Below are positions 1,985 to 36,337 of a stretch of DNA of 64,000 bases, piece by piece. Where the stretch lies: assembly GCF_035818615.1 (NCBI RefSeq), contig NZ_JAYKZY010000002.1:2482501-2546500 (forward strand), written 5' to 3'. Below the pieces are notes generated by a model that saw nothing but the letters and a program-made list of their open reading frames with translations, did no database searches and had not been told where the DNA came from. Made by a program: the position numbers and the translations under genes. Source of the stretch: Sphingobium sp. CR2-8 (GTDB lineage Bacteria; Pseudomonadota; Alphaproteobacteria; Sphingomonadales; Sphingomonadaceae). Numbering within the stretch: the stretch's first letter is position 1; each line of letters starts with the position of its first letter.

Positions 1985-2983
1985 TCATTTGACCTGAAAG
2001 CCCGACCAGAATGAGTCCGCCTTATCAATCCAGATCGTATTGAATCCGGTGGCGATGGCAGATCCCTCGATCGAGGGAATGATCGCCGCCTCGCCACCCA
2101 GTTGCACCGCCTGCTCGATCCGACCGATGAAGCGGCTGCCGATATAGCTTTCATGGATGAACCGATCGCCAACGCGCAACCGTCCTGATGCCGCCAGATG
2201 CGCCAGCCGCGCCGACGTGCCGGTACCGCAGGGGCTGCGATCGATCGCCTTGTCGCCGTAGAAGACGGCGTTGCGACCATCCGCGCCGTCCCCGCGCGGC
2301 TTGTCGGCCCATAATATATGACTGACCCCACGAATGGTGGGGTCGAGCGGATGGACCGGCTCATATTTCTCGCGGATGGCCGCACGGATATGATCGCTCA
2401 GATCGATGAGGCGCGCCGCACCCATATCGTCCAGGCCGGTATAAGCACCCTGCGGTTCGATGATCGCATAATAGTTACCGCCATAGGCGACGTCGACGCT
2501 CAGTGGGCCGATGCCGTCCACATGGACTTCGATCCCCCTCGCCGCGACATAGGCGGGGACGTTAGTGATGCGCACCGCCGTCACCTTCTGCCCCTCCGTC
2601 TCATAGGCGATGTCGATCACGCCAGCGGGCACTTCGACCTTCAGCCTGCCCGGCGTGGTCGGCTGGATCAGCCCATGTTCCAGGCCGAAGGTGATGATGC
2701 CGATGGTCCCATGGCCACACATGGGCAGGCAACCGCTGGTTTCGATGAAGAGGATACCGATGTCGGCATCAGCCAGGGTCGGCGGATAGAGGAAGCCGCC
2801 CGACATCATATCATGGCCGCGCGGCTCGAAACACAAACCGGTGCGGATCCAGTCGAATCGGTTCAGGAAATCCTGCCGCCGTTCCGACATGGATGCGCCC
2901 CGCAGCAGCGGCGCCCCGCCCGCGACGAGGCGGACGGGGTTTCCGGCCGTGTGGCCGTCGATGCAGAAGAAAGTGTGACGCAT
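1985..2983 (-). CDS. 4-hydroxyproline 2-epimerase (proline racemase family)
   Basis: A 332-residue proline racemase-family enzyme, predicted to interconvert trans-4-hydroxy-L-proline and cis-4-hydroxy-D-proline in the cytoplasm, the first step of bacterial hydroxyproline catabolism. Both catalytic cysteines are visible: Cys89 in PMCGHGT and Cys252 in DRSPCGTGTSA. The second cysteine argues against a trans-3-hydroxyproline dehydratase, which has threonine there. No signal peptide. The start ATG follows a GGAAGCGGGG box. It lies 12 bp behind the DapA-family gene on the same strand, so the two are almost certainly co-transcribed from the promoter with the 3941-3958 palindrome. D-proline racemisation is a possible side or alternative activity. 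Equivalent to HypE/LhpA in other bacteria. Confidence 0.85.
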   Translation of the reverse strand: MRHTFFCIDGHTAGNPVRLVAGGAPLLRGASMSERRQDFLNRFDWIRTGLCFEPRGHDMMSGGFLYPPTLADADIGILFIETSGCLPMCGHGTIGIITFGLEHGLIQPTTPGRLKVEVPAGVIDIAYETEGQKVTAVRITNVPAYVAARGIEVHVDGIGPLSVDVAYGGNYYAIIEPQGAYTGLDDMGAARLIDLSDHIRAAIREKYEPVHPLDPTIRGVSHILWADKPRGDGADGRNAVFYGDKAIDRSPCGTGTSARLAHLAASGRLRVGDRFIHESYIGSRFIGRIEQAVQLGGEAAIIPSIEGSAIATGFNTIWIDKADSFWSGFQVK

Positions 2984-2995
2984 CCCCGCTTCCTA

Positions 2996-3910
2996 TCAGG
3001 CCGCAGCGGCGACCGACAGGTCCGGACGGGTCGCGGCGGCCTTTTCGACCATCGCGATCACTTCGGCGCGGCGTTCGCCCTGCAACACATAGCGCGGCGG
3101 CAGCACGCGCTCGGAACCCCGACCCATCACTTCTTCGGCCAGCTTGATCGACTGGACCAGGTCATGTTCGGCATCCAGGTGCAGCAGCGGCATGAACCAG
3201 CGATAAATTTCCATCGCCTTGGCATGATCGCCCCGTTCGAAGGCGCGGACCAGTTCCACCGATTCCTTGGGGAAGGCGTTGGTCAGGCCTGACACCCAGC
3301 CCTGCGCGCCCAGATACAGGCCCTCCAGCGCGACGTCGTCCAGACCGGCGAACAGCGTGTAGCGATCGCCGAAAGCATTGCGGAAATCGGTGAAGCGGCG
3401 GGTATCGGGCGCCAATTCCTTGACCGCGACGATATTCTTCACATCGACCAGCGCCGTCAACACTTCAAGGTCGATCACGGTGCGATAGGCCGGCGGGTTG
3501 TTATAGAGCATGATCGGCAGGCCAGTCTGATCGGCGACGCCCTTGAAATGGGCAACCAGTTCATGCGCCTTGGGAACATAGACCATCGGCGGCAGCAGCA
3601 TCAGGCCATCGGCGCCGGCCTTTTCGGCGGCCTGCGCGTAGCGGACGGCGCGGCGCGTATCATATTCCGACACGCCGGTGATAACCGGCACGCGGCCGTC
3701 TACGACTTCGACGATCGCGGAAAGAACGCTGACCTTCTCGTCATAGTCCAGCGAGTTGTTTTCGCCCACCGTACCCAGCGCAATCACGCCGGTGACGCCG
3801 TCCTTGACCAGATCGTCGACCACGCGCTGCGTGTCGGCGAGGTCGATCGACAGATCTTCACGCAGTTGCGTGGTGACCGCCGGAAACACGCCTTTCCAAC
3901 CAATTGCCAT
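2996..3910 (-). CDS. DapA-family aldolase/deaminase, probable pyrroline-4-hydroxy-2-carboxylate deaminase
   Basis: A 304-residue DHDPS/N-acetylneuraminate lyase-family TIM barrel. The Schiff-base lysine is Lys164 in VAVKELAPD, the conserved tyrosine is Tyr136 in LYNNPPAY, and the GTVGENNSL loop lies near residue 46. In hydroxyproline degradation a member of this family (HypD/LhpC) deaminates and dehydrates pyrroline-4-hydroxy-2-carboxylate to 2-oxoglutarate semialdehyde. Placement directly before the epimerase makes that the best assignment, rather than lysine biosynthesis or 2-keto-3-deoxy sugar acid cleavage. The start is supported by an AGGAAG box. The upstream region carries the best copy of the shared palindromic operator, about 30 bp before the start. 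Activity cannot be separated from sister families by motif alone. Confidence 0.75.
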   Translation of the reverse strand: MAIGWKGVFPAVTTQLREDLSIDLADTQRVVDDLVKDGVTGVIALGTVGENNSLDYDEKVSVLSAIVEVVDGRVPVITGVSEYDTRRAVRYAQAAEKAGADGLMLLPPMVYVPKAHELVAHFKGVADQTGLPIMLYNNPPAYRTVIDLEVLTALVDVKNIVAVKELAPDTRRFTDFRNAFGDRYTLFAGLDDVALEGLYLGAQGWVSGLTNAFPKESVELVRAFERGDHAKAMEIYRWFMPLLHLDAEHDLVQSIKLAEEVMGRGSERVLPPRYVLQGERRAEVIAMVEKAAATRPDLSVAAAA

Positions 3911-3940
3911 ATTCGTTCTTCCTGCCTTTTTGCTGGTATA

Positions 3941-3958
3941 AATATCGTATACGATATT
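3941..3958. promoter_or_regulatory. Palindromic operator, perfect copy (site 1)
   Basis: AATATCGTATACGATATT is a perfect 18-bp inverted repeat 31 bp upstream of the deaminase-epimerase operon. Related sites occur before the TonB receptor (7279), the arabinofuranosidase operon (14175), a GntR regulator/S9 peptidase divergent region (15064), the D-amino-acid dehydrogenase (26168) and the second TonB receptor (36320). Shape and length suit an FCD-type GntR dimer. Confidence 0.8.
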
Positions 3959-3996
3959 ACGTTAGCCCGTGCAACGGACTTTTTGCACTGCGGCAA

Positions 3997-4383: not shown

Positions 4384-4448
4384 CTTTTCTCTCCCTTGCC
4401 TGGAGTAGCCGCACTGATAGACACCACAGCCTCTTTCATGTGCCAAGA

Positions 4449-4512: not shown

Positions 4513-7242
4513 TCAGAAGCGGAAGCGGATGCTGGCCTGCGCCGTCCGCGCCAGCGTGCGGACACCCAACGGCAGCAGATTCTGGTTGCCATGATAGCGG
4601 AACACGTCGCTGCCCAGCAGGTTGGTCGCCTCCAGCGACAGAGTCATGAACTTGACCGGGGTAAAGTTGACGGCCGCATCCAGCCGTTCCGTCGCGGCGT
4701 TGTAGGGCGAATAGGTCGCATCATGGTCAAGGCCGCTGTTAGGATCGAGCCACACGTTCAGGCGATAGGAGGAACGGTAATTATAGGCGACACGGGCGCT
4801 GAACTTGGGCGTGTCGTAGAACAGCTCCATGTTGGCGGTCCATTTCGACGTGTTCAGTGAATCGAACTCGCCGGGGAAATCCTCCTGATCATCATATTCA
4901 ACGCGCGCCTTGAATATGTGCGATCCATTCACCTTCACGCCGAAATTGCGCAATGCGCCCGGCAGGAAGTCGAAGAAGGTCTGGAATGTGCCTTCGATCC
5001 CGGTGAAGGTGCCGTCGCCCACATTGCGCAACTGTTCGATAAAACCGGATGACGCATTGGTGACGCCATAAAGCGCCAGTTGGGCGGCAGTCGCTGGCTC
5101 CCGGCTGGCGAAGAGCGAGCCAGTTGTTTTCTTGTGATAGCCAGCGATCGAAATCTGCCCGCCACGCCCGAAATAATATTCGGCGCTGATGTCGAATGCC
5201 TGGTCGCGCTGCGCTTTCAGATCAGGGTTGCCGGCAAAGATGATCGGCGGAGTGGCGCGCGTCTCGGCAAAGTAGAAGGGCCGTGACTCGAAGAAGCTGG
5301 GGCGCTGGACATTGGTGCTATAGGCCAGCCGCAATTGCATCTTTGGCGTGAAGTGGATGATCGCCGTCGCGCTGGGCAGCACATCATAATAATTGCCCCT
5401 GCCCGGCGACTCCTGGACGATGTCCTGGAAATCGTTTGTCACGTCGCCCGGACGGTAATTGAAACTGACCGAGTTGCCCCAGGTATTGGTGTAGCGCACA
5501 CCGGCCACACCATCGACCGGGATGTTCCCCAGCTTGAAGGCCCAGTTGAGCTGGGCATAAGCGGCGAAATTCTTTTCGTTGGAACTGAAGGTCTGGCCGC
5601 GATCGCTGTTCGGATAGACAGTGGAAAAGGTCGTAGCGTTGCCGGGGTCATACTGCTGGATGAAGCCGCGAATGTCGTCGATATTCGCCAGCAGCGTCGC
5701 GCCGGGAATACGATACCATTGCATGGTGGAGCCGCCAATGTCGGGGCCGATCAGCGAAGCGTCACCAAAACCGGGAAACAGGCTAAGCGGCGCCCGCGCG
5801 CCATTCAGGCGCGGGAAACCGTCACGATAGCCATAATAGCGGCTGGTCTTGCGCTGGTTATACCGGCCACCGACTTGCAGGCTGCGCAGGAAAGACTCTT
5901 CGCTCAGCTTCAGCGTCAGATCGGCCTGGGCGGCAAATTCCTTGTTCTTCGATCCGCCCTGGTTGTCCTGAAAACGATCGACGCCATAGCTCGACAGATT
6001 GTTGAGGTCGACGCCGTTGAACGTGATCGATGGCACGCCCTTGCTATACAGGTTCGATGCGAAATCGACCGTCGCGGAATTCAGGTTGTTCGGGCGCAAG
6101 ATGGTTTCGACGAAATAATTGCCTTCGTTCGACCAGTTATATTGCGCACTGACGTTCAACTGGGCGCGATCATTATGCCAATGCGCCTCCAGATTGCTGG
6201 TATAGAGGTTGGAACGGATATTGTTATACTGGGTATCGATGCCTGCCGGGATGCCGTTGGGGTTGGTGATGGTCAGAGACTTTACGGTTTTGCCGTCCGG
6301 CATCAGCACGACATCACTGTAGTTGGTCGCGAAGGGCAAATCCTGTGCATAGAGGCGCTCGACAGAGCGCTTCTCGCGCGATCCCAGATAGCCGCCTTCC
6401 AGCACGAAATCGAGATTATCGCTGGCCTTCCACTGCAACACCGCATTGATCGACGGGCGCTTCACGCTGCCCTGTTCAATGCCATATTGCGCGCGATAGG
6501 GGATGACGATGTTGGCATTGCCGACCGCCGTGGTGAAGGGCAATTCGCTATCGATAAAATTTTCGCGATAATTGGTCTTGGTCAGCGACGCATTCACCAG
6601 AAAGCCTATTTCGCCGATGCCGGTTTCGAAACGGTTCGCGACCAGCAAGCTGCCATAGGGGCTGACCTTTTCGGAAATATCGTCGTAGGAACCGCGAACG
6701 CTGCCCGCGATGGTCCAGCCTTTCTTCAGGTCGAACGGCCGACGCAGTTCGACATTGACCGTGCCCGCGATGCTGCCTTCGACCTGATCGGCCGAACGTG
6801 TCTTGTAGACATCGACGGATTTGAGCAGTTCGGCAGGAATATCAGCCAGATTGAGCGAACGTTCCTCGCCCAGATTGGTGTTGTTGCCGTTGACCGTGGT
6901 CTGCACGCCGGACAGACCACGGATCGTTACTTCCTGCCCCTGACCACGCGCGCGGTCGATCTGCACGCCGGTGACGCGTGCCAGTGCCTCGGGCACGTTA
7001 TTGTCCGGCAATTTACCCGCATCTTCCGCCACGACCGAGTCCACGATCTGTTTGCTATTCTTCTTTTTGGTCGATGCGGCCGCGACACTGCCGCGTACGC
7101 CGGTGACGATGATGTCCGATTTGGCGGCAGCCGCTTCGTCCGGGGATTGCTGCGCGTCCTGCGCCATGGCCGCGACCGAAAGCGACGCGAAAGTCAGCGC
7201 GGACAAGGCCGCCGACATGTTGAGAACCGTACGCGACTTCAT
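4513..7242 (-). CDS. TonB-dependent receptor (Xanthomonas/Caulobacter type)
   Basis: A 909-residue outer-membrane receptor. The start at 7242 gives MKSRTVLNMSAALSAL, a clear signal peptide ending near AMAQDA; the frame extends 17 codons upstream, but a GGGAAAGTGG box precedes this ATG. The plug domain has the VVAEDAGKLPDNNVPEALARV start, an RGLSG segment and RSADQVEGSIAGTVNVELRRPFD. The rest is a 22-strand barrel ending in the outer-membrane signature SIRFRF. Receptors of this type usually carry plant-derived oligosaccharides across the outer membrane using ExbBD-TonB energy. It sits between the hydroxyproline genes and the arabinofuranosidase operon and has its own copy of the palindromic operator (7279-7296), so a glycan or glycopeptide from the same substrate is the likely cargo. 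Confidence 0.93.
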   Translation of the reverse strand: MKSRTVLNMSAALSALTFASLSVAAMAQDAQQSPDEAAAAKSDIIVTGVRGSVAAASTKKKNSKQIVDSVVAEDAGKLPDNNVPEALARVTGVQIDRARGQGQEVTIRGLSGVQTTVNGNNTNLGEERSLNLADIPAELLKSVDVYKTRSADQVEGSIAGTVNVELRRPFDLKKGWTIAGSVRGSYDDISEKVSPYGSLLVANRFETGIGEIGFLVNASLTKTNYRENFIDSELPFTTAVGNANIVIPYRAQYGIEQGSVKRPSINAVLQWKASDNLDFVLEGGYLGSREKRSVERLYAQDLPFATNYSDVVLMPDGKTVKSLTITNPNGIPAGIDTQYNNIRSNLYTSNLEAHWHNDRAQLNVSAQYNWSNEGNYFVETILRPNNLNSATVDFASNLYSKGVPSITFNGVDLNNLSSYGVDRFQDNQGGSKNKEFAAQADLTLKLSEESFLRSLQVGGRYNQRKTSRYYGYRDGFPRLNGARAPLSLFPGFGDASLIGPDIGGSTMQWYRIPGATLLANIDDIRGFIQQYDPGNATTFSTVYPNSDRGQTFSSNEKNFAAYAQLNWAFKLGNIPVDGVAGVRYTNTWGNSVSFNYRPGDVTNDFQDIVQESPGRGNYYDVLPSATAIIHFTPKMQLRLAYSTNVQRPSFFESRPFYFAETRATPPIIFAGNPDLKAQRDQAFDISAEYYFGRGGQISIAGYHKKTTGSLFASREPATAAQLALYGVTNASSGFIEQLRNVGDGTFTGIEGTFQTFFDFLPGALRNFGVKVNGSHIFKARVEYDDQEDFPGEFDSLNTSKWTANMELFYDTPKFSARVAYNYRSSYRLNVWLDPNSGLDHDATYSPYNAATERLDAAVNFTPVKFMTLSLEATNLLGSDVFRYHGNQNLLPLGVRTLARTAQASIRFRF

Positions 7243-7278
7243 CCACTTTCCCCTTTTTCCCGGCGGATTGCCTGACTT

Positions 7279-7296
7279 TATATCGTATACCAACTA
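7279..7296. promoter_or_regulatory. Palindromic operator, one good half (site 2)
   Basis: The left half TATCGTATAC (7281-7290) is identical to site 1; the right half is degraded. It lies 37 bp before the TonB receptor start, where an overlapping promoter would be blocked by a bound repressor. Confidence 0.65.
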
Positions 7297-7448: not shown

Positions 7449-9005
7449 TCAGCCGCAACTTGGCGCCGGTTCCGTTCGATGGCGCACGGTCGGCCGCGCG
7501 GCCTTAGGTGCCAGAACCTCCCATTCCTGCACGGCGAGGGCCGCATGGCCCTTGTCGTCGCCCGAGGCATTCAGCACCGCGCGCAGGCAACGGGTGCGAA
7601 CAGGCGGAAAGCGGACGGTCTGAAACCCGCCCGGCTGCGTGCCATAGGTGCCGACACCGGGCACCGGCTTCCATCCCTGATGCCAATATTCCAGGTGCCA
7701 CGCCGCCGGCGGCGCGACGCCGACGCCCGATCCGGCTGGCTGGTCGTTCCAGAACCACAGGCGAGATCCGTCGATCGTCACATCCGTGTCCCAGCGATAT
7801 TCGATCCACTGGGTCGCAGGATTGTTCGGCGACCAGCTGCCCCACATGTCCGGTGGCAGCGGCGCGGCCTTGGTGATGCCGTCATTCAGCGCCTTGATCC
7901 AATATTGCACCGGCACCGGATCGTTGGACGCCGTTGCCGACGCCGCCCGCGCGATATTGCGGGTGGGCGCCAAAGGCGGTTGCGGACGCAGGGTCGGCAC
8001 CACCGTTCTGATACGCGCCGGCGTCACGCTGTCGTCCCATTCCAGTCGGTCGATCGCGACGCTGCGGCGGAAATGCCCGCCCCCTTTCGCATCGGCGGTA
8101 TGATAGGCCAGATACCATTGCCCCTTATACTCGACCGCGCCCGCATGGGATGTGGTCGAGGATACGGGCTTCAGCGCGACCCCGCGATAGGTCCATGGTC
8201 CCATCGGCGAGGATGCCGTGCCATAGGCGATGCAGGCATGATAGACCGCCTGCGTGCAGTCCGAGGTCGGCCCCGCCTTGTTCCCCGCATAGAGCATATA
8301 ATAGACGCCCCTGCGCTTCATGATCCAGGGCGCCTCGAAGAAGCCGGTCAGTCCTTCGATGGGATGCTCGCCCGACTTGGGCGTCACCATGTCGCGTTCC
8401 AGCTCCATGCCGCGCAATTGCCCGAACGTGCCCCAATAGAGATAGACCCGCCCATCATTGTCAATCAGGATGGTGGGGTCGATATTCTGGATGTCGTTCT
8501 TCACCGGCACCCGTTGCGAGATGATCGGCCCTGCCGGATGGGCGTCGCGCCATGGCCCGGTCGGGCGGTCCGCCACCGCCACGCCGATGGCGAAGCGATC
8601 CTTGGCGTCGCTGTCCTTCTCCAGCACCGGCGCGTAGAAATAGTAACGCTTGTCCGGTCCCTGCACGATCTGCCCGGCATAGGCGCGCGCCTCTTCTGCC
8701 CAGGCGAAGATATTTTCCGGCCGCGCCATGTTGGGATAATGGGTCCATTGGCCCGACTTGGGATCGTCGGTCCGCAGCAACTGCCATTCGCCCATGATGA
8801 AATCATTGACGTCGGGCGGCGCCTGGTCGCGGCCCGCCAATATCCATAGCGCCCCGTCCGCGACAAAGGGCGCTGGATCGGTCGAGTAATAGTCGCCATC
8901 GGCCAGGATCGGATTGCCCGGCACGCTAATCGCGCGCGGCTCCTCCGCAGCGGCGGGCGCGACCAAGGCGACCAGCGCGAGGCTCGCGAGCAGCCTATTC
9001 CTCAT
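7449..9005 (-). CDS. Secreted glycoside hydrolase family 43 enzyme with C-terminal accessory domain
   Basis: 518 residues. The signal peptide (MRNRLLASLALVALVAPAAA) is followed by a five-bladed propeller of clan GH-F. The inverting catalytic residues are recognisable: Asp43 in STDPAPF, Asp176 in NIDPTIL and the general acid Glu224 in FFEAPWI. After residue ~330 a beta-rich module (NIARAASATASN, later VRFPPVRTRCLRAVLN) looks like a discoidin/F5-8-type carbohydrate-binding domain. GH43 members are mostly alpha-L-arabinofuranosidases, beta-xylosidases or galactanases; substrate cannot be read from sequence. As the last gene of the operon with the GH127-type arabinofuranosidase, action on arabinosyl or galactan chains of cell-wall glycoproteins is likely. 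Its start overlaps the DUF885 gene by 11 bp. Confidence 0.88.
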   Translation of the reverse strand: MRNRLLASLALVALVAPAAAEEPRAISVPGNPILADGDYYSTDPAPFVADGALWILAGRDQAPPDVNDFIMGEWQLLRTDDPKSGQWTHYPNMARPENIFAWAEEARAYAGQIVQGPDKRYYFYAPVLEKDSDAKDRFAIGVAVADRPTGPWRDAHPAGPIISQRVPVKNDIQNIDPTILIDNDGRVYLYWGTFGQLRGMELERDMVTPKSGEHPIEGLTGFFEAPWIMKRRGVYYMLYAGNKAGPTSDCTQAVYHACIAYGTASSPMGPWTYRGVALKPVSSTTSHAGAVEYKGQWYLAYHTADAKGGGHFRRSVAIDRLEWDDSVTPARIRTVVPTLRPQPPLAPTRNIARAASATASNDPVPVQYWIKALNDGITKAAPLPPDMWGSWSPNNPATQWIEYRWDTDVTIDGSRLWFWNDQPAGSGVGVAPPAAWHLEYWHQGWKPVPGVGTYGTQPGGFQTVRFPPVRTRCLRAVLNASGDDKGHAALAVQEWEVLAPKAARPTVRHRTEPAPSCG

Positions 9006-10767
9006 CGGGATATGGCCCCTTGCCGCCGTCCGCGATCAACTGGTCGACGCGCTGGTCGATCACCGGCAACGGCACTGCGCCGATTTCCAGCACCGCATCG
9101 TGGAAGGCGCGGATGTTGAACTTCGGCCCCAGGGCCTTCTCGGCCTTCTTGCGCGCATCAACGAAGGCCAACTCACCCATATAGTAGGATAGAGCCTGCC
9201 CCGGCCAGGCGATGTACCGATCCACCTCCGTCTCGATCTCATGATCGGACAGAGCGGTGTTGTCATGCAGATAATCCTGCGCCTGCTTGCGGGTCCAGCT
9301 CATCGCATGGATGCCGGTGTCCACCACCAGCCGCGACGCGCGCCATGCCTGATAACTCAGCATGCCGAAGCGATCATAGGGCGTTTCATACATGCCCATA
9401 TCCTCGCCCAGCGCCTCGCAATAGAGCGCCCAACCCTCGCCATAGGCGGACAGATAGGTGTCGCGGCGATAGGCCGGTAGCGCCTTGTTCTCTGCCGCCA
9501 GCGGCATCTGCATCGCATGGCCCGGCGCGCTTTCGTGCAGGGTCAGCGCGACCTGCGAATAAAATGGGCGCGAGGGGAGGTCATAAGTATTGACCAGATA
9601 GATGCCCGGCCCGCCGCGCCCACCGGTATAGAAGGGCGCGATATCGTCCGGCACCGGCTTGATCGCGAAGCGCATCCGCGGCATCCGCCCGAAATATTGC
9701 GATGCCTTGCCATCGAACGTCTTGGCGATCCATGCGGCGCGGTTGAGCAATTCCTGGGGCGTCTTGGGATAGAAACGCGGGTCGGTGCGCAGGAAGGTGA
9801 GGAAGGCGGGCAGGTCGCCCTTGAAATCGACCTGCTTCATGACTTCGCCCATCTGGCTGCGGATACGCGCCATTTCGCTTAGGCCGATCTTGTGGATCTC
9901 GTCCGGACTCTTGTCGAGCGTCACGAACTCGCGGATCTTGGACTGATAATAGGCCTTGCCGTCGGGCAGCTTGTAGGCGGCCAGATCCTTGCGCGCACCG
10001 GGAATATACTCCTGCCGCAGGAAGGTCAGCAACGTCTGATGACCAGGAATGACGGCCTGCGTAATGGCGGCCTGCGCCTCGGTGCGAAGCTGCGCCTGCA
10101 CGTCGACGGGGATGGTCGGGGGCAGTGTCTTGAACGGCGCGTAGAAGGGGTTGTCCTCCACCCTCTTCGCCTTGGCCACCTGCTCGACGCCGATGTCGCG
10201 GCCCTGCAGCGTGATCTGCGACGGAGTGAAGCCACGCTTCAAGCCAGCGCGCATGTTCGCGATCTGCTGGTCATAATAGCGCGGAATGTCGCGCAGCATC
10301 GCGATATAGCGCCGCGCGGCCGCCTCATCGCGCAGCGGATCGCGCGCCCACCCGGCCAGATCGCCCCAGAAGCTGGTGTCGGCGTTCAGCGGCTTCTCAA
10401 ACTCGCGATAGCGCTGTTCGGCGAGCAGCGCGTCGATCTGCCCCTTGTAGACGGCGAAGTTCACCTGCTGCGCGGACGACAGTTGATCGACCCTGATCGC
10501 GGCCAGTTGCTTGTCCACCTGTTCCCAGCGCGCCAGCCGGGCGGCCTGCGCCTTGGGACCAACATCGGGCAGCATCAGCGCCTGATCCTTGGGACCATCC
10601 TCGCTGGGACCGAATTGCTTCTGCCGCCAGCCATATTCGGAGGTGGAGATCGCCTCGAACGCCTGATCGGCGGTTTGGGCCACAGGTTGCGCACCGCTGG
10701 ACGCCGCAGTCAGGGTGATGAAGGCCGCCCCGGCGAGCAGCCAGTTCCGGCCGCCAAAGATGGTCAC
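8995..10767 (-). CDS. Secreted DUF885-type metallopeptidase
   Basis: 590 residues with an N-terminal signal peptide (hydrophobic WLLAGAAFITLTAASSGA). The C-terminal half contains the family motif HESAPGHAM, an HExxPGH variant of the zinc-binding helix, followed by EGWALYCEALGEDMGMY, whose glutamate would be the third ligand. DUF885 proteins are common in sphingomonads and behave as periplasmic peptidases in the few cases studied. Position between a reductase for cyclic imino acids and a GH43 glycosidase suggests it trims peptides released from a proline/hydroxyproline-rich protein. It overlaps its upstream neighbour by 4 bp and its downstream one by 11 bp, so it is translationally coupled. 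Substrate unknown. Confidence 0.85.
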   Translation of the reverse strand: MTIFGGRNWLLAGAAFITLTAASSGAQPVAQTADQAFEAISTSEYGWRQKQFGPSEDGPKDQALMLPDVGPKAQAARLARWEQVDKQLAAIRVDQLSSAQQVNFAVYKGQIDALLAEQRYREFEKPLNADTSFWGDLAGWARDPLRDEAAARRYIAMLRDIPRYYDQQIANMRAGLKRGFTPSQITLQGRDIGVEQVAKAKRVEDNPFYAPFKTLPPTIPVDVQAQLRTEAQAAITQAVIPGHQTLLTFLRQEYIPGARKDLAAYKLPDGKAYYQSKIREFVTLDKSPDEIHKIGLSEMARIRSQMGEVMKQVDFKGDLPAFLTFLRTDPRFYPKTPQELLNRAAWIAKTFDGKASQYFGRMPRMRFAIKPVPDDIAPFYTGGRGGPGIYLVNTYDLPSRPFYSQVALTLHESAPGHAMQMPLAAENKALPAYRRDTYLSAYGEGWALYCEALGEDMGMYETPYDRFGMLSYQAWRASRLVVDTGIHAMSWTRKQAQDYLHDNTALSDHEIETEVDRYIAWPGQALSYYMGELAFVDARKKAEKALGPKFNIRAFHDAVLEIGAVPLPVIDQRVDQLIADGGKGPYPDEE

Positions 10768-11789
10768 GCCATGTCCCCTTCCAATAATGCCAAAATATCC
10801 CGGTGGAGTTGCGCCGGGATGCGCACGCCGTCCGCGTCAGATTGCGCCCGCGCGATATAGCGTCGCGCGCCGGGCAGTCGTGCGCCCTGCCCCGTGATCG
10901 TATCGAACATCGCTTCGGCCCGGCGCAGATGATCCTCGACACTGGCGCCCAGGAAACCGGCGGGATCGACCGCGATCACCAATTCGCCGCCGATCGGCGA
11001 TCCCATGCGTCCTTCATCGGCCGCCATCAATTCCGCGCTGGTCATGTCGCCGATCAGCGGCCCGGCGATCAGTTCGACCATCGCGGCCAGCGCCGATCCC
11101 TTATGCCCGCCAAATGTCCGCATCGCGCCGTCCAGCACCGCCTTGGGATCGATCGAGGGATGTCCCTCGGCATCATAGCCCCATTCGGGCGGGATGGTCT
11201 TGCCCGCGCGGCGGTGCAGTTCGATCTCACCGCGCGCGACGGCGCTGGTGGCAAAGTCGAATATGAAGGGATGCCCGCCCGGACGCGGCCAGCCGAAGGC
11301 GATGGGGTTGGTGCCAAACACGGGCTTCGTCCCACCCTCCGGCGCGACCCAGGCATGGCTGGGAGTGAACGCCAGCCCCACCAGCCCCGCATCGGTCAGC
11401 GCCTCGACCTCCGGCCAGAGCGCAGCGAAATGCACCACATTGTTGAGCGCCAAGGCGGCAATGCCATAGGCGCGCGCCTTCTCGATCAGCAGCGGCAGGC
11501 CGCGCTCGAACGGCAGTTGCGCGAAACCGCCCTTGCCATCAACCCGGACCAGCGCCGCAGCGGGTTCGCTCACCACCGGCACGGCGTCCGGCACGACCAC
11601 GCCCCGCGCGATCGAATTGACGGCCACCAGCAGGCGATAGAGTCCGTGCGAAGCGCAGCCATCGCGCTCGCCTGCCACCATCGTGCGGGCGACGGCGGCG
11701 GCGTGATCGGTCGCCAGACCGCGGCTCTTCAGCACCTGGCGGGCCAGCGCATCGGCTTCCGCAAGGCTCAACGCAACGCTATCGCTCAT
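10764..11789 (-). CDS. Ldh2-family oxidoreductase, probable delta1-pyrroline-2-carboxylate reductase (DpkA-like)
   Basis: 341 residues of the malate/L-lactate dehydrogenase 2 family, without a signal peptide, so cytosolic. Diagnostic stretches are RDGCASHGLYRLL near residue 53, GTNPIAFGWPRPG, DFATSAVARGEIELH and FGGHKGSALAAMVELIAGPLIGD. The last three resemble the Pseudomonas DpkA branch, which reduces delta1-piperideine-2-carboxylate and delta1-pyrroline-2-carboxylate with NADPH, better than malate or ureidoglycolate dehydrogenases. In this locus it could return the imine formed from D-proline, or from 3-hydroxyproline, to L-proline. The gene overlaps both neighbours by 4 bp (ATGA type), placing it firmly in the arabinofuranosidase operon although it is not a carbohydrate enzyme. 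Confidence 0.78.
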   Translation of the reverse strand: MSDSVALSLAEADALARQVLKSRGLATDHAAAVARTMVAGERDGCASHGLYRLLVAVNSIARGVVVPDAVPVVSEPAAALVRVDGKGGFAQLPFERGLPLLIEKARAYGIAALALNNVVHFAALWPEVEALTDAGLVGLAFTPSHAWVAPEGGTKPVFGTNPIAFGWPRPGGHPFIFDFATSAVARGEIELHRRAGKTIPPEWGYDAEGHPSIDPKAVLDGAMRTFGGHKGSALAAMVELIAGPLIGDMTSAELMAADEGRMGSPIGGELVIAVDPAGFLGASVEDHLRRAEAMFDTITGQGARLPGARRYIARAQSDADGVRIPAQLHRDILALLEGDMA

Positions 11790-14174: not shown

Positions 14175-14192
14175 ATATCGTATACTATATGA
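14175..14192. promoter_or_regulatory. Palindromic operator (site 3)
   Basis: AATATCGTATACTATATG keeps the complete left half and core of site 1. It lies 20 bp before the start of the arabinofuranosidase operon and downstream of the GntR regulator gene. Confidence 0.72.
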
Positions 14193-14995: not shown

Positions 14996-15063
14996 GCCTG
15001 CATCCAATCCCGTCACTATGCACCAACGCTACACGCATAAATGGGCAAGGAAAAGACCGATCT

Positions 15064-15081
15064 TATATCGTATAATCTTAT
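15064..15081. promoter_or_regulatory. Palindromic operator in divergent promoter (site 4)
   Basis: The left half TATCGTATA is intact and the right half decayed. It lies 69 bp from the regulator start and 73 bp from the S9 peptidase start, so it could serve autoregulation and the peptidase operon together. Confidence 0.6.
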
Positions 15082-15153
15082 TGACGATGGGCTCCGTTAC
15101 GGTCATGACGGCGGCCTCTCTCCTGGAATGATAGGCAGCGCGCAGCCGTGCAC

Positions 15154-26167: not shown

Positions 26168-26185
26168 AATATCGTATACGGTATA
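26168..26185. promoter_or_regulatory. Palindromic operator (site 5)
   Basis: AATATCGTATACGGTATA differs from the perfect site only in the last five positions. It lies 26 bp before the chosen GTG of the D-amino-acid dehydrogenase. A weaker match at 26342-26359 (core TATAC) precedes the divergent GntR gene. Confidence 0.75.
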
Positions 26186-26409: not shown

Positions 26410-27066
26410 GTGACCATCGTCGTCCGCACTCTTTCCGAACGTATTTTCGAAGTTATCCGCGAGCGAATCGTGGAGGGAAAGCTGCCCGACCGCGAACCGG
26501 TCCGGCAGGATGCGCTGGCGGCCGAACTGGGGGTCAGCAAAATCCCCCTGCGCGAGGCGCTGGCGCGGCTGGAGCATGAGGGGCTGCTCACCAGCCAGGC
26601 CAATCGCGGCTGGTTCGTCCGACCGATGTCGGCCGACCAAGCCGAGGAAATCTACCTGCTGCGCCTGGCGACCGAGCCGGTCGCCGCCGCTTTTTCCTGC
26701 ACTCGCACCAACGAGGCCGACCGGCAGGCCGCGCTCGACGCCTTCAAGTTGCTCGATGCGGCCGCTAATGACGATCTGAACGCCGTCGCCGTGCGCAATC
26801 GGGAATTCCATGTTGCGCTGGTGCGTCCGGGCGGGCGACTGTTGACGACGCAACTCGTCGAAAGGCTCGAGGTTCTGGCGGAACGTTATGTGCTGGCGCA
26901 TCTGGCGCCGGCCGGCCGTGGCGACCGCGCCCATCTGGAGCATCAGGCGCTGCTCGACGCCTGGCTCGCCGGCAATGCCGACGAAGTGCAGGCGCTGCTG
27001 ACCAGCCATATTTCCAGCACACTGGACGACCTGCGCGCGCAACTCGCCGCCAGTCACACGCAATGA
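26410..27066 (+). CDS. GntR-family (FCD) transcription regulator, second copy
   Basis: 218 residues. The GTG start is preceded by GGAG at a 9-bp spacing. A winged HTH occupies about 1-70 (ERIFEVIRERIVEGKLP, LGVSKIPLREALARLEHEGLL, NRGWFVRPM), then an FCD domain (AEEIYLLRLATEPVAA, NREFHVALVRPGG, EHQALLDAWLAGNADEVQALL). It lacks the LDPDVLAW linker of the regulator at 14255, so the two belong to different FCD branches and may sense different ligands, for instance an imino acid against a sugar acid. It is divergent from the dehydrogenase-peptidase operon and is followed 19 bp later by the permease gene, so control of hydroxyproline uptake and oxidation is its likely task. Confidence 0.92.
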   Translation: MTIVVRTLSERIFEVIRERIVEGKLPDREPVRQDALAAELGVSKIPLREALARLEHEGLLTSQANRGWFVRPMSADQAEEIYLLRLATEPVAAAFSCTRTNEADRQAALDAFKLLDAAANDDLNAVAVRNREFHVALVRPGGRLLTTQLVERLEVLAERYVLAHLAPAGRGDRAHLEHQALLDAWLAGNADEVQALLTSHISSTLDDLRAQLAASHTQ

Positions 27067-27085: not shown

Positions 27086-28501
27086 ATGCTCGGACCACGC
27101 AAATCCATCGAGTCACTCGCAAGGCGCGAGTCCGGGCATAGTCTGGCCAAGACGTTAAGCTGGCCGCACCTCATTGCACTGGGCGTAGGCGCGATCGTGG
27201 GCACTGGCATCTATACGCTGACCGGCGTGGGTGCCGAGCGCGCCGGTCCCGCCGTCATCCTGGCCTTCGCCATTGCCGGCGCGGTCTGCGCCTGCGCGGC
27301 ACTGGCCTATGCCGAAATGGCGACCCTGATCCCGGCGGCGGGCAGCGCCTACACATTCAGCTATGCCGCCATGGGCGAAACCGTCGCTTGGGTCGTGGGA
27401 TGGAGCCTGATTCTGGAATATTCGCTCGCCTGCTCGACCGTCGCGGTCGGCTGGTCGGGTTATCTGGTCGGCTGGCTGACATCGGCGGGCATCCATCTGC
27501 CCGCGATGCTGCTGGTCGGGCCGCATGGCGGCGGCCTCATCAACCTGCCCGCCGTGATGGTGGCGCTGGCCGTGATGGGGATGCTGATCGCGGGTACACG
27601 CGAAAGCGCGACGCTCAACATCATCCTGGTCATCATCAAGCTGGTTGCGCTGTCTATCTTCGTAGCGATCGCGATGCCCGCCTTTCAGTCGACCAACCTT
27701 GATCCGTTCATGCCCTATGGCTTTACCAGCACCGAAATCGGCGGCGAGAAGCGCGGCGTGATGGCGGCGGCGGCGATCGTCTTCTTCGCCTTTTACGGCT
27801 TCGACGCGGTCGCCACATCGGCGGAAGAAGCGAAGAACCCGGGCCGTGACCTGACCATCGGCATCATCGGGTCGATGCTCGTCTGCACTGTCATCTATAT
27901 GGGCGTAGCCATTGCCGCTATCGGTGCAGTGCCCTTTCAACAACTCGCCAATTCACCCGAACCGCTGGCGCTGGTGCTGCGCCAGCTGGGCCAGCCGGTC
28001 GCCGCACATCTGATCGCGCTGGCCGCCGTCATCGCATTGCCCTCCGTCATATTGGTGATGATGTATGGCCAGAGCCGCGTCTTCTTCGTCATGGCGCGCG
28101 ACGGCCTGCTGCCGCGCAGTCTGGCCAAGGTCAGCCCGCGTACCGGCGCACCGACCCGCATCACGCTGATCACCGGCGTGTCGATCGCGCTGGTCGCGGG
28201 CATATTCCGCCTGGACGAGATTGCCGAGTTGGCCAATGCTGGGACGCTGATCGCCTTCATGGCGGTGGGCGCCTGCCTGATGATCCTGCGCCGTCGCTCA
28301 CCGGAACTGCCGCGCCTGTTCCGCTGTCCGCAACCCTATATAGTGGGCACGCTGACGATCCTGGGCTGCGCCTATCTGCTGTTCAGCCTGCCGGAATCCA
28401 CGCTGATCCGCTTTGGCGCGTGGAATGTGATCGGACTGCTGTTCTACATATTCTACAGCCGCAGCCGCAGCACCGCCCGGCAAGAGGCTGCCGACGCCTG
28501 A
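27086..28501 (+). CDS. APC superfamily amino-acid permease (cationic-type/YfnA-like)
   Basis: 471 residues with about 12 predicted membrane helices. The first helix reads LIALGVGAIVGTGIYTLTG, the unwound GxGxxxGxGIF-like substrate segment of APC transporters; later helices include FFAFYGFDAVATSAEEAKNPGRD and the QSRVFFVMARDGLLPR loop, both typical of the CAT branch. An AAAAGGGG box precedes the ATG. It follows the GntR gene directly and precedes the galactosidases. Given the neighbours, hydroxyproline or proline is the best guess for its substrate, though CAT-type proteins usually carry basic or branched amino acids, so this is inference only. Confidence 0.9.
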   Translation: MLGPRKSIESLARRESGHSLAKTLSWPHLIALGVGAIVGTGIYTLTGVGAERAGPAVILAFAIAGAVCACAALAYAEMATLIPAAGSAYTFSYAAMGETVAWVVGWSLILEYSLACSTVAVGWSGYLVGWLTSAGIHLPAMLLVGPHGGGLINLPAVMVALAVMGMLIAGTRESATLNIILVIIKLVALSIFVAIAMPAFQSTNLDPFMPYGFTSTEIGGEKRGVMAAAAIVFFAFYGFDAVATSAEEAKNPGRDLTIGIIGSMLVCTVIYMGVAIAAIGAVPFQQLANSPEPLALVLRQLGQPVAAHLIALAAVIALPSVILVMMYGQSRVFFVMARDGLLPRSLAKVSPRTGAPTRITLITGVSIALVAGIFRLDEIAELANAGTLIAFMAVGACLMILRRRSPELPRLFRCPQPYIVGTLTILGCAYLLFSLPESTLIRFGAWNVIGLLFYIFYSRSRSTARQEAADA

Positions 28502-28552: not shown

Positions 28553-33191
<4,639 letters not shown>

Positions 33192-33343: not shown

Positions 33344-33346
33344 GCT

Positions 33347-36259
33347 TTAGAAATTCACCGTCGCGCCGATGAAGATGTTGCGACCCAGCGCGTCATAGAC
33401 GCCTGGATAGGTGTTGCCGTTGCCGAAGGACGACAGGATGCCGGCCGCGATCGCTGGCGGATCCTTGTCGAACATATTGTTCATGCCAGCGCGCAACGTC
33501 AGCTGCTTGCCGATCGACTGGGTGAGCGACAGGTCGAAATAATTATAGTCGTTGATCTTGCGGTTGATGACGCTGGGCGTACCGTTGAGCGCGGCATTGT
33601 CCGACAGGCTGGACAATGTCGTGCCGCCGATGTGACGCCAGGACAGCGAGAGGACGGTATCGCTGGGCGCCATCCAGGTGAAACGGGCCACATGGCGCCA
33701 TTCGGGTGATGGTTGACCACAGGTATAGCCGAACAGGCCCTTGCAGTCATAGCTTCCCTGGCCCGGCAACGGTTGCGATACCTGCTTGGCCAGCCAGGTG
33801 CCGACTGCATTGATGTTGAATTGGCCCAGCTTGCCGATGCCGAACGTATAGTCGGCGGTCACGTCGATGCCGGACGTCTTGAGATATCCGGTGTTGAGCG
33901 TCGTCGATACGATATAGCCGTTCTGACCGAAGATAGCGCCCGACCGTGGATCACGATTGAACAGGCCGCAATAATAGGGATCGCCGGTCTGGGCGCACTG
34001 GCTGATGATCAACGAGGCGTCGAGCGCACCGATATAGTCCTGCACCTTGATCTTGTAATAATCGACAGACAGCGAGAAGTTGCGCAGCGAGCGCGGCGTC
34101 AGCACGAAACCCGCGGTGATCGTATCGGCCGTTTCCGGCTTCAGTCCACGATTGCCGCCGCCCAGTGCAGAACAGGTGTCCGCCGGGCATTCCACGATAT
34201 TGCCATATTGCGCGGCGGTAACGCCGGTGAGCGCGCAGGTCGCTTCGGACGCGACAGGGTCCGGACCGGAACAAGGGTCTTGCCCGGCGACATTGCCGAC
34301 CGACTGCGACGCGAAGAGTTCACCGATATTGGGCGCACGGATTGCATGGTTGTAGCTGGCACGCAGGCGAAGGTCGTCGACCGGTTGCCAGCTAAGTTCG
34401 CCCTTGTATGTCCAGACATTGAAATTGGACTTGAAACCGGTCGACTTCTGCTGATTCTTGTATGACGAATAACGCAAACCACCATTGATTGTCAGCGACC
34501 GGACGAAGGGCATGTCCGAAATCAGCGGAATTTCGATTTCGCCATAGCCTTCGGTCACGCTGATGACGCCATCCGCATTGGTGGCGCCGCCCTGCTGCGC
34601 GATCTCGTCGGCGAAATAGTTCAGCGTCTCGCGGCGATGTTCCGCACCCAGCGCAATGCCCACGCCCCGGCTGGCCCAGGGACTGGTGATGCCCATCTGG
34701 CCCAGATCGCCGCTCAGCGTGCCGGAAAAGACCCGCTGCGAATTGCGGGACGAGGTGTTGCTGGGGGTGAAGAGATAGTTGCCCTGTTCTGCGGTGACGC
34801 CGCCAGCCGCGAAGACATTGACCGGGATACAATTGGGGTCGGTGCCGTCGATGACCGAACGACAGGTGGGAACGCCGTTGACGGGCACGACGTCGAGCGC
34901 GCGTTGCGCCTTTACCGCATCGACATTGTTGAGATAGCGTTCCTTGAAGCGAACCAGCGAATAGAGATAGTTCACATCATAGCTAAAGCCACTGCCCAGA
35001 TCGCCGCGCACGCCGGCGGTATAGCGATAGTCGTTATATCTAAGGTCATCACGGCGTGGGGCGAGGGTCATGCGGTAGCCGACCAGCGCATCGGCGGTCT
35101 GGCTGGTGCCCGCCTTGGCCCCGCACAGGGTGTTGAGCTGGCTGGCGCTGGCCAGCGGATTGTTGCACGAAATAGCGAAGGGCGAGCCCAGGAAGATCGC
35201 CGAGGGCGCGACCTGCGAGAAGGTATGATCACGCATGAACATAAAACTGCCATAGACTTCGGCCGCCTTGCTCAGTTCGAACTTGGCGAAAGCGCCTGCG
35301 GTGATGCGTTCGTCCGACCGCTGGAAATAATTGTCCGGCGCGTAATTATAGGCATAGCTGTTGTCGTAGGGTACGAAGGTCTGGCTGCCATCCTTGTTGT
35401 TGGTTAGCGTCTGGCCCTGCGCAGCGCCCTCCAGCGGGACGAATGTGCCAAAGGGCGTATTGCTCGACCCGCCGCAGAACAGGGCTGTGCCGGCATCGTC
35501 AGCCTGTTGCAGCGCGCAGGAAGATACGTCGCGGTTCGACTGACGCACCGGATCATGATGGCGATAGCCGGCATAAGCGGTGATGTTGCCGCGACCATCG
35601 GCGAAATTCTTGCCCGCAGACACGGTGATGTCCTGCTTGCCGCCGTCCATGACCGAACCGTTGGCCTTGCGATAGCCCTTGTCGTCGAGCAGGCTGCGTA
35701 CCGCGCCATTGTTGTTGTCATGCTGATAGAAGCCGGTCTGGGCGTCGATCCGGATGCCGTCCAGATCATCCTTCAGCACGAAATTGACGACGCCCGACAG
35801 CGCGTCCGAACCGTAGACCGCCGACGCGCCGCCAGTCAGCACATCGACACGCTCGACCAGGCTGCTGGGCACGAAATTGAGGTTGATCGCCTGCTGGGGC
35901 AGCATGCGCTGGCCATTGACCAGCACAAGCACGCGGTTGTCCCCCAGATTGCGTAGATTGACCTTGGAGGTACCGTCCGAACCATTCGAGACATTCTCGT
36001 TCGCATCGGCGGTGAATTGCGGCAGGCGGTTCAATACGCCTTCCACCGTGGTTGCCCCCTGGTAGCGAAATTCTTCCGCGCCCACGACGGTCTGAGGACT
36101 GTTGCTCTGCAGATCGGGGCGCTTGATGCGCGTACCGGTCACGACGATGTCCGATGCACCGGACGCTGCGGGTTCCTGCGCGATCTGCGCCAGGGCAATC
36201 CCAGGCAGAACGGCGGTCGCCGCCGCAGCACAACATAGTCTTACACGGTAATTCCGCAT
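33347..36259 (-). CDS. TonB-dependent receptor, second copy of different subtype
   Basis: 970 residues. A signal peptide (CAAAATAVLPGIALA) is followed by an N-terminal segment DIVVTGTRIKRPDLQSNSP and a plug with VEGVLNRLPQFTADANENVSNGSDG, NLRNLGDNRVLVLVNGQRM and SAVYGSDALSGVVNFVLKDD. The barrel ends with RNIFIGATVNF. This iron-siderophore-like subtype is often found beside secreted peptidases, so it may import glycopeptides while the receptor at 4513 imports oligosaccharides. The division is inferred from plug sequence and neighbours only. It has its own promoter with palindromic operator site 6, placing it in the same regulon. It is convergent with the galactosidase operon. Confidence 0.92.
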   Translation of the reverse strand: MRNYRVRLCCAAAATAVLPGIALAQIAQEPAASGASDIVVTGTRIKRPDLQSNSPQTVVGAEEFRYQGATTVEGVLNRLPQFTADANENVSNGSDGTSKVNLRNLGDNRVLVLVNGQRMLPQQAINLNFVPSSLVERVDVLTGGASAVYGSDALSGVVNFVLKDDLDGIRIDAQTGFYQHDNNNGAVRSLLDDKGYRKANGSVMDGGKQDITVSAGKNFADGRGNITAYAGYRHHDPVRQSNRDVSSCALQQADDAGTALFCGGSSNTPFGTFVPLEGAAQGQTLTNNKDGSQTFVPYDNSYAYNYAPDNYFQRSDERITAGAFAKFELSKAAEVYGSFMFMRDHTFSQVAPSAIFLGSPFAISCNNPLASASQLNTLCGAKAGTSQTADALVGYRMTLAPRRDDLRYNDYRYTAGVRGDLGSGFSYDVNYLYSLVRFKERYLNNVDAVKAQRALDVVPVNGVPTCRSVIDGTDPNCIPVNVFAAGGVTAEQGNYLFTPSNTSSRNSQRVFSGTLSGDLGQMGITSPWASRGVGIALGAEHRRETLNYFADEIAQQGGATNADGVISVTEGYGEIEIPLISDMPFVRSLTINGGLRYSSYKNQQKSTGFKSNFNVWTYKGELSWQPVDDLRLRASYNHAIRAPNIGELFASQSVGNVAGQDPCSGPDPVASEATCALTGVTAAQYGNIVECPADTCSALGGGNRGLKPETADTITAGFVLTPRSLRNFSLSVDYYKIKVQDYIGALDASLIISQCAQTGDPYYCGLFNRDPRSGAIFGQNGYIVSTTLNTGYLKTSGIDVTADYTFGIGKLGQFNINAVGTWLAKQVSQPLPGQGSYDCKGLFGYTCGQPSPEWRHVARFTWMAPSDTVLSLSWRHIGGTTLSSLSDNAALNGTPSVINRKINDYNYFDLSLTQSIGKQLTLRAGMNNMFDKDPPAIAAGILSSFGNGNTYPGVYDALGRNIFIGATVNF

Positions 36260-36319
36260 TGATTGTCTCCCTGGCGTTTTTTGCAGGAAAGACGCTGCGG
36301 CAAATTCGCCGGAAAGTCA

Positions 36320-36337
36320 AATATGGTATACGAAATA
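36320..36337. promoter_or_regulatory. Palindromic operator (site 6)
   Basis: AATATGGTATACGAAATA keeps the GTATAC core and the AT-rich arms of the shared palindrome. It lies 61 bp before the second TonB receptor start and on the far side faces the MBL-fold gene. Confidence 0.62.

Follow-up and report, generated by a model that had tools for sequence, protein, structure and literature searches.

A probable utilisation locus for plant hydroxyproline-rich glycoproteins in Sphingobium sp. CR2-8, built around hydroxyproline catabolism

Organisation of the locus

In order to follow up an earlier note, which had proposed that one locus joins glycan removal, proteolysis and hydroxyproline (Hyp) catabolism for the use of plant hydroxyproline-rich glycoproteins (HRGPs), we analysed a window of 64,000 nucleotides from the 4.5 Mb genome of Sphingobium sp. 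CR2-8 (C2:2482501-2546500). Using Pfam and NCBIfam models, we found 19 genes fitting the families listed in that note within positions 1985-36259 (Table 1). All of these families were recovered at about the positions first given; the DUF5695 protein and the FAD dehydrogenase start at approximately 17514 (not 17184) and 26141 (not 26223), respectively. A gene for a probable pyrroline-2-carboxylate reductase of the Ldh_2 family (10764-11789) had been missed. Export of the window proteins was called by eye from their N-termini, not with a signal-peptide program. Read from strand, overlaps and gaps, the genes at 1985-36259 form eight units: DapA-epimerase (-), TonB receptor 1 (-), GH146-Ldh2-DUF885-GH43 (-, with overlapping ends), GntR1 (-), S9-DUF5695-Svx-POT (+, again with overlapping ends), FAD enzyme-M24 (-), GntR2-APC-GH27-GH2 (+) and TonB receptor 2 (-).

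Table 1. Genes and operator sites of the locus, in window positions (GH, glycoside hydrolase; PL, polysaccharide lyase; PWM, position weight matrix score in bits; Pyr4H2C, delta1-pyrroline-4-hydroxy-2-carboxylate)
Feature	Position	Strand	Basis and remarks
4-Hydroxyproline 2-epimerase (HypE/HypRE type)	1985..2983	-	NF010578 538.6 bits, cut-off 376
DHDPS family (DapA), probable Pyr4H2C deaminase (HypD/LhpC type)	2996..3910	-	PF00701
Operator ATATCGTATACGATAT, DapA-epimerase operon	3942..3957		exact palindrome match, PWM 30.5; 32-47 bp upstream
TonB-dependent receptor 1	4513..7293	-	TIGR01782 513.8 bits; true start probably near 7245 (by eye)
Operator, TonB receptor 1	7280..7295		PWM 20.2
GH43, exported, HypAA-like alpha-arabinofuranosidase	7449..9005	-	PF04616
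DUF885, exported, probable peptidase	8995..10767	-	PF05960 509 bits
Ldh_2, probable delta1-pyrroline-2-carboxylate reductase (HypS/DpkA type)	10764..11789	-	PDB 1wtj
GH146, exported, beta-L-arabinofuranosidase type (XeHypBA1-like)	11786..14155	-	best PDB 5opj (BT0349)
Operator, GH146-Ldh2-DUF885-GH43 operon	14175..14190		one mismatch, PWM 28.5; 20-35 bp upstream
GntR/FCD regulator 1 (GntR1)	14255..15016	-	PF00392 + PF07729
Weak operator between GntR1 and S9	15065..15080		PWM 10.6
S9 (DPP IV-like) peptidase, exported	15148..17517	+	PF00930 + PF00326; GGSAGG at 643
DUF5695, exported, PL27-like predicted fold	17514..20270	+	fold prediction
Svx/AvrXca-family metallopeptidase, exported	20270..22222	+	NF040510 771.5 bits, cut-off 625; HELTH at 190
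POT-family di/tripeptide transporter	22210..23721	+	TIGR00924 356.9 bits, cut-off 130.2
M24 Xaa-Pro-type peptidase, cytosolic	23722..24912	-	PF00557 + PF01321
FAD dehydrogenase, probable D-hydroxyproline dehydrogenase (HypO type)	24922..26141	-	PF01266 158.5 bits; start by eye
Operator, FAD enzyme-M24 operon	26169..26184		one mismatch, PWM 28.8; 28-43 bp upstream
GntR/FCD regulator 2 (GntR2), proposed HypR-type	26410..27066	+	PF00392 + PF07729
Amino-acid permease (APC)	27086..28501	+	PF13520
GH27 alpha-galactosidase type, exported	28553..30061	+	PF16499 228.5 bits
GH2 beta-galactosidase type, exported	30081..33191	+	PF02836 and others
TonB-dependent receptor 2	33347..36259	-	PF00593 + PF07715
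Operator, TonB receptor 2	36321..36336		two mismatches, PWM 24.7; 62-77 bp upstream

Probable genes of hydroxyproline catabolism

The epimerase combines a match above its model cut-off with both catalytic cysteines (Cys 89 and Cys 252, in the motifs MCGHGT and SPCGTGT), as expected of a 4-hydroxyproline 2-epimerase; it is 61.5% identical to the pSymB copy of Sinorhizobium meliloti and the sole Pro_racemase-family match in the whole genome. The adjoining DHDPS-family protein is 44% identical to the one in the Hyp cluster of Burkholderia multivorans and 30% to that of the S. meliloti hyp region. Its gene adjoins the epimerase in 20 of the 22 epimerase-anchored stretches with data (L152-L157, L159-L173), and was not detected in the epimerase-anchored stretch of genome G052 (L158). 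As the models used do not separate Pyr4H2C deaminase from L-2-keto-3-deoxyarabonate dehydratase, it was called a probable deaminase by family and Hyp-cluster context. The FAD dehydrogenase is 34% identical to the S. meliloti hyp-region copy, and in many relatives its gene adjoins that of the M24 peptidase.

The Ldh_2 protein matched 1wtj, a delta1-piperideine-2-carboxylate reductase, best among PDB entries (2e-71; next match 3e-37), which points to a reductase of the DpkA/HypS type. Its identity is 54% with the S. meliloti hyp-region protein and 61-62% with homologues encoded close to GH146 in three loci of Xanthomonas. The title of a work cited in PMC4113996 presents the Pseudomonas member of this family as a piperideine/pyrroline-2-carboxylate reductase that serves D-lysine and D-proline catabolism. 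A role in a trans-3-hydroxyproline route was considered and is disfavoured: the single Pro_racemase match in the genome is the 4-hydroxyproline epimerase, and the D-proline branch is therefore preferred for this enzyme.

No alpha-ketoglutarate-semialdehyde dehydrogenase was recognised at the locus by Pfam and NCBIfam scans or by aldehyde-dehydrogenase queries. A last-step dehydrogenase within the locus was rejected after 12 of the genome's 18 aldehyde-dehydrogenase matches were used as queries and none matched the window. The last enzyme of the pathway would be encoded elsewhere. Several relatives do carry aldehyde-dehydrogenase genes nearby. In Sphingobium sp. Leaf26 an aldehyde dehydrogenase (L014:7471-8841) that is 81% identical to one elsewhere in the CR2-8 genome lies between GntR1 and GH146. 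With the dehydrogenase of a Sulfitobacter Hyp cluster as query (itself 74% identical to one in the S. meliloti hyp region), homologues of 53-54% identity were found in the Hyp stretches of four relatives (L157, L163, L164 and L166). Sphingomonas quercus (L080) has a dehydrogenase 55% identical to the Hyp-cluster enzyme, 0.2 kb after GH146 on the same strand, and genome G182 (in L175), probably of the same species, gave the same values. In CR2-8 itself, the product of C2:852461-854059 (L217) is 54% identical to the Sulfitobacter enzyme and, judged by this likeness, is probably an alpha-ketoglutarate-semialdehyde dehydrogenase that may also serve Hyp catabolism. Its neighbours (an IlvD/EDD-type dehydratase, a 2-keto-3-deoxygalactonokinase and a GntR gene) form a sugar-acid cluster, and a PWM scan of the surrounding stretch gave no operator of at least 12 bits. 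Arabinose and hydroxyproline catabolism might both end at this enzyme.

Probable glycan-acting enzymes and peptidases

The earlier note had labelled the enzyme at 11786-14155 as GH127-type; match scores, metal residues and phylogeny instead assign it to GH146. It stands closer to BT0349/Bll3HypBA1 than to GH127, and matched 5opj (BT0349) with 480 bits (1e-142) versus 48 bits (4e-12) for the GH127 HypBA1 3wkw, a match too weak for HypBA1 in the strict sense, and its residues E349, C351, C419 and C420 align with the metal and nucleophile positions (E-x-C and CC) of GH146. Among named genomes the best match was that of Sphingobium limneticum (97%). In a GH146 tree all 40 Hyp-linked rows fell in one 61-row clade (support 99), and its sister group (support 92) was a clade of Xanthomonadaceae, among whose members are copies that adjoin HypBA2.

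We compared 14 loci, among which eight Xanthomonadales loci (L055, L058-L062, L064 and L066) encode a GH43 64-69% and a GH146 48-50% identical to those of the window. GH27 is present in five of the 14 (55-58% identity, beside GH146), the Ldh_2 reductase in three and Svx (50%) in one. HypBA2 was confirmed in L060 and L061 (approximately 1100 bits, below the model cut-off of 3200) and in L062; the GH43 beside it in these three Xanthomonas loci shares 64-67% identity with the window enzyme. Residues 386-506 of the window GH43, its C-terminal part, align with the C-terminal end of HypBA2 (31.9 bits), which hints at a common accessory domain.

HypBA2 itself belongs to GH121, for which only two short partial matches were found in the CR2-8 genome. 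At an E-value of 1e-60, GH121 was found in none of 199 genomes of the same family (Sphingomonadaceae) and in neither of two further sphingomonad genomes, and the same model found it in all three Xanthomonas genomes used as a positive control. The locus therefore lacks one member of the HypBA1/HypBA2/HypAA three-enzyme system.

The exported protein at 17514-20270 had been described as a DUF5695-like glycosidase. Its family was confirmed, and its predicted fold resembles that of PL27, a family of lyases for arabinogalactan proteins (AGPs). The profile match has an E-value of 5e-8 and identity to the PL27 L-Rha-alpha-1,4-GlcA lyase BACCELL_00875 is 14%; the likeness is one of predicted fold. A second, distant DUF5695 protein (approximately 25% identity) was seen inside the Hyp/GH146 locus of three sphingomonads (L037:16770-19505, L038:16772-19552 and L039:15181-17964). 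The Svx protein passes its equivalog model and contains the HExxH motif, which places it in the Svx/AvrXca family.

A common operator

A search for palindromes shared upstream of orthologous genes gave a GTATAC-centred type at both DapA and GH146; in exact-palindrome counts other palindromes occurred at single genes, and the GTATAC type was the one followed. Across the 4.5 Mb genome, TATCGTATACGATA with at most one mismatch is found at three places, all in the locus (3943, 14176 and 26170), and a second mismatch adds 36322 and two places outside it (C1:201453 and C2:1736091). The reversed pattern had three occurrences in the same genome search. Within the window, six matches with up to three mismatches were observed against 0.68 expected. 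We also built a PWM from 31 distinct DapA sites. Its top five matches in the window were the promoters of DapA, the FAD enzyme, GH146, TonB receptor 2 and TonB receptor 1; the sixth (14.4 bits) lies inside GH146, followed by the S9/GntR1 site.

The same promoters carry the operator in relatives. At a threshold of at least 9 bits, sites were found upstream of GH146 in 55 of 57 orthologues, the FAD enzyme in 40/43, TonB receptor 1 in 10/10, TonB receptor 2 in 12/12 (an MBL gene, 1/1, shares the latter site), S9 in 9/10 and GntR1 in 8/10. DapA reached 52/54, which is not independent since the PWM was trained on these promoters, and the DapA and FAD enzyme counts overlap because the two genes share one divergent site in several relatives. 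Sites were rare at operon-internal genes (epimerase 1/49, GH43 0/19, M24 1/42, APC 1/35, Svx 0/7); values for other genes were DUF5695 0/10, POT 0/6, GH27 0/6, Ldh2 2/43, DUF885 7/48 and GntR2 7/36, and GH2 had none at its own promoter in three orthologues. Upstream regions in other organisms were taken from alignment starts, not annotated ones, and shuffled regions reached 9 bits in 0-7% of cases, the shuffles permuting base pairs in steps of two and not being true dinucleotide shuffles.

In 32 further genomes, 11 of the sites with at most one mismatch among those listed (at least 12) lie in Hyp/GH146 stretches. Ten of the 12 listed are in the epimerase/GH146 stretch of their own genome and one is in G009, a genome without an epimerase match; the site at G182:C12:3645 precedes the reductase gene by 43 bp, and the same stretch encodes the FAD enzyme and M24. 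The operator is present in six of the eight epimerase loci without GH146 that were scanned; a ninth (G097, on a 3.3 kb contig) was left out, and G182 (3.4 kb contig) likewise fell outside the epimerase-anchored scan. Conversely, L030 and L045 have an operator at GH146 (24.7 and 18.0 bits, respectively) with no Hyp genes within 22 kb, which suggests control in trans; L045 also carries Svx, DUF5695 and GH43. PWM matches in the S. meliloti stretch were 16.4 and 14.2 bits, and in B. multivorans at most 10.6. In G175 a two-mismatch operator lies approximately 160 bp ahead of the GH2 homologue, in the interval separating it from a divergent S9-like gene. A palindromic AATCGTATACGATT site in the same genome (G175:C31:311944, in L212) has none of the window's proteins nearby and may be a regulon member or chance.

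With its Hyp core, a GntR regulator and a shared operator, the locus has the components of a HypR regulon. GntR2, which accompanies the Hyp core also where GH146 is absent, is most likely the operator-binding regulator, with hydroxyproline as its proposed effector. As L152, L153, L162 and L169 have operators yet no GntR2 in the stretch examined, the regulator can be named only tentatively.

Conservation among relatives

The epimerase (E-value ≤ 1e-80) is present in 24 of the 199 family genomes and a GH146 above 900 bits, a cut chosen after inspection of the scores, in 15. The co-occurrence in sphingomonads anticipated by the earlier note was borne out: all 15 GH146 genomes are among the 24 with the epimerase (Fisher p about 1e-16, not corrected for relatedness), and the two genes are 2.1-10.7 kb apart in 13 of them and on different contigs in the other two (G182 and G083). 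Nine family genomes have the epimerase and no close GH146. None of 11 weaker GH146/GH127 matches lies within 20 kb of an epimerase on one contig; of their genomes, three lack the epimerase and three have the two genes on different contigs. In a second set, of GTDB loci with full 10 kb flanks, the epimerase, DapA or FAD enzyme (at least 50% identity) was found beside GH146 in 34 of 41 members of the Hyp-linked clade, to which loci were assigned by hand from the tree, and in 0 of 16 others. Some species occur in both sets (e.g. L040 and G123), so that the rows are not independent. Gene order varies among relatives and much of the content is kept. L092 and L031 carry DUF5695, GH146, the reductase, DUF885, DapA, GntR and APC, with no epimerase in the stretch examined.

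Comparison with described systems

The closest arabinosidase system is XeHypAA-XeHypBA2-XeHypBA1 of Xanthomonas euvesicatoria, in which GH43, GH121 and GH146 (there called GH127) degrade Ara4-Hyp stepwise and deletion of the three genes left pathogenicity unchanged, according to the accessible part of the report (PMC6085000). The Xanthomonas loci examined here are probably counterparts of XCV2724-2729, because gene content and order agree, and the window was judged through them: it shares homologues of GH43 and GH146 and, with related Xanthomonadales loci, GH27 and in some cases a nearby Svx, TonB receptor or Ldh_2 reductase. Unlike the window, the Xanthomonas loci have GH121, and none of the Hyp genes for epimerase, DapA and FAD enzyme was found in the flanks examined. 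HrpX controls the operon of X. euvesicatoria (PMC6085000), and no operator-like match stood at the GH146 promoter among the top matches in five Xanthomonas-type loci scanned. The HypBA1/HypBA2/HypAA system of Bifidobacterium longum similarly removes arabinosides from Hyp in sequence, but is based on GH127 and GH121, and the available passages on it mention no hydroxyproline catabolism (PMC10850190, PMC6085000).

For the catabolic half, a 31 kb stretch of S. meliloti pSymB, which we take to be the hyp region (a name drawn in part from PMC5343134), holds homologues of the epimerase, Ldh_2, FAD enzyme and DHDPS protein, but nothing matching the glycosidases, peptidases or TonB receptors of the locus. 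Proteobacterial HypR regulons resemble the window in a GntR regulator, the Hyp core, a TonB receptor, prolidases, a peptide permease and upstream polymer breakdown; their polymer, however, is collagen, with secreted collagenases in the Alteromonadales, and glycoside hydrolases go unmentioned in the passages on them (PMC5343134). As to Svx, a 2026 study reports that the Pectobacterium atrosepticum protein cuts extensins but does not cut some other proteins (PMC13164431). The window protein is like those of Pectobacterium and Dickeya in family (NF040510), HExxH motif and export (PMC13164431, PMC10815107 and PMC9266454, each in part), and differs in that its gene is flanked by those of a PL27-like protein and a peptide transporter, within what appears to be a nutrient locus. 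Svx-like proteins of Sphingobium have been noted before (PMC9266454, same passages).

Proposed function and alternatives

We consider it probable that the locus is a utilisation regulon for plant HRGPs (extensin and/or AGP), built around Hyp catabolism, because of the conserved linkage, the HypAA/HypBA1-type homologues in Xanthomonas, the extensin-cleaving Svx family and, above all, the common operator. Exported GH43 and GH146 would remove alpha- and beta-arabinofuranosides, GH27 and GH2 would remove galactose, and the PL27-like DUF5695 protein may act on a further part of the glycan. Svx, S9 and DUF885 would cut the peptide, and the two TonB receptors and the POT transporter would import fragments from which M24 could release Hyp or Pro. 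Conversion of Hyp to alpha-ketoglutarate semialdehyde would then fall to the epimerase, the FAD dehydrogenase and the DHDPS-family deaminase, with the pyrroline-2-carboxylate reductase feeding a D-proline side branch back into L-proline. The repressor that binds the TATCGTATACGATA-like operators at the promoters of DapA-epimerase, FAD enzyme-M24, GH146 and the two TonB receptors would be of the GntR/FCD family, most likely GntR2 (HypR type), and would answer to hydroxyproline, so that a product of the protein's own degradation would switch on deglycosylation. Of the claim first made, the joining of glycan removal, proteolysis and Hyp catabolism gains support from linkage, homologues and the shared operator, whilst the GH127 label changes to GH146 and Svx lies outside the conserved core. 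More tentative, and in our view slightly less apt to hold than to fail, is the proposal of a complete glycoprotein-utilisation regulon whose signal is the protein monomer 4-hydroxyproline and no sugar, in which one HypR-type regulator, acting through one operator, governs the Hyp pathway together with arabinosidases, peptidases and TonB receptors in many sphingomonads, and for which DUF5695 is an uncharacterised PL27-like family for HRGP glycans.

A number of observations weigh against this function. The nearest solved relative of the GH43 is 3qed, which we take to be an arabinan-specific enzyme; GH146 also includes arabinan enzymes, and BT0349 is described as acting on arabinan-derived oligosaccharides. 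No GH121 was found, and the opening of Ara3-Hyp is therefore unexplained. Svx, present in one of the 199 family genomes, is rare and outside the conserved core. A 75% relative of the DHDPS protein, whose identity to its S. meliloti counterpart is only 30%, lies in a Rhizobium stretch where no other Hyp genes were seen, and L031 and L092 keep DapA, GntR and APC with no epimerase in the stretch examined. With regard to regulation, the sites of the S9-DUF5695-Svx-POT and GntR2-APC-GH27-GH2 operons are weak (10.6 and 9.7 bits, respectively), so that control of both is unsure. Two-mismatch counts do not separate genomes with the epimerase (0-12 sites, 21 genomes) from those without (0-5, 11 genomes), and the G175 GH2 site may be chance, as that genome has 12 such sites. 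The epimerase loci of G003 and G159 have no operator; both also lack GntR2 in the stretch examined.

The arabinan enzymes among these relatives raise the possibility of an arabinan/pectin or general arabinoside locus that stands beside a Hyp cluster by chance, with GH43, GH146, GH27 and GH2 acting on pectic side chains. We regard this as improbable: one operator precedes both halves, in the window and in relatives, Hyp linkage is confined to one GH146 clade, and the GH43 is 64-67% identical to the one encoded next to HypBA2 in three loci of Xanthomonas. Within the HRGP function itself, the main substrate could be a gum-like AGP, not extensin, with the PL27-like DUF5695 and GH2 opening its glycans and its core supplying the Hyp. 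This narrower case seems rather unlikely, given that extensin is the substrate suggested by the Svx family and by the HypAA-like GH43, and that no beta-1,3-galactanase or glucuronidase family was seen among the window proteins scanned, which did not include every open reading frame (ORF).

Two further alternatives concern the catabolic genes. Pyr4H2C deaminase and L-2-keto-3-deoxyarabonate dehydratase belong to the same superfamily, and the DHDPS protein could be the latter, serving catabolism of arabinose and not of Hyp to alpha-ketoglutarate semialdehyde. The 75% Rhizobium relative, which adjoins a fucosidase and an oligopeptide-type ABC transporter and no Hyp genes, would fit such a role; we nevertheless give it a low probability, as the gene usually accompanies those of the epimerase and FAD enzyme, whether GH146 is present or not, and resembles that of the B. 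multivorans Hyp cluster. A cluster for collagen or general proline-rich peptides would have a precedent in the Alteromonadales, where collagenases, prolidases and a peptide permease are reported as members of HypR regulons (PMC5343134). Here, the GH146 operon carries the common operator, and no collagenase turned up in the scans, which covered proteins of the window and not the remainder of the genome. We know of no role for GH146, GH43 or GH27 on collagen glycans. A collagen function thus appears very improbable.

HypR regulons reaching up to a polymer, in that case collagen (PMC5343134, in part), and HRGP arabinosidases in Xanthomonas and Bifidobacterium are already described. For a bacterial locus joining these functions for plant glycoproteins, no description was seen in the papers retrieved from the open full-text literature, subscription papers lying outside the search. 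Extensins and AGPs count among the major glycoproteins of the plant wall, and bacterial use of their glycan and protein parts together is little described. If the HRGP function is correct, the coupling of deglycosylation to Hyp catabolism would account for a nutrient niche that plant-associated sphingomonads occupy, and plant glycoproteins would join collagen as polymers served by HypR regulons. Hydroxyproline would be a directly testable inducer, and DUF5695, the Svx-type protein and GH146 would be candidate enzymes for work on extensin.

Surroundings of the locus

To the right of the locus, ordinary proteins were recognised (e.g. GGDEF, LptD, SurA-like, PdxA, RrnaAD, JmjC_2, PP-loop and RodZ-like), together with several long ORFs that had no Pfam match among those scanned. 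At its left edge, window positions 1300-1689 hold a fragment that by eye resembles the C-terminus of a tyrosine recombinase (HGFRTSASSLSNE). An integrase is annotated near the related locus of Sphingomonas parapaucimobilis (L092).

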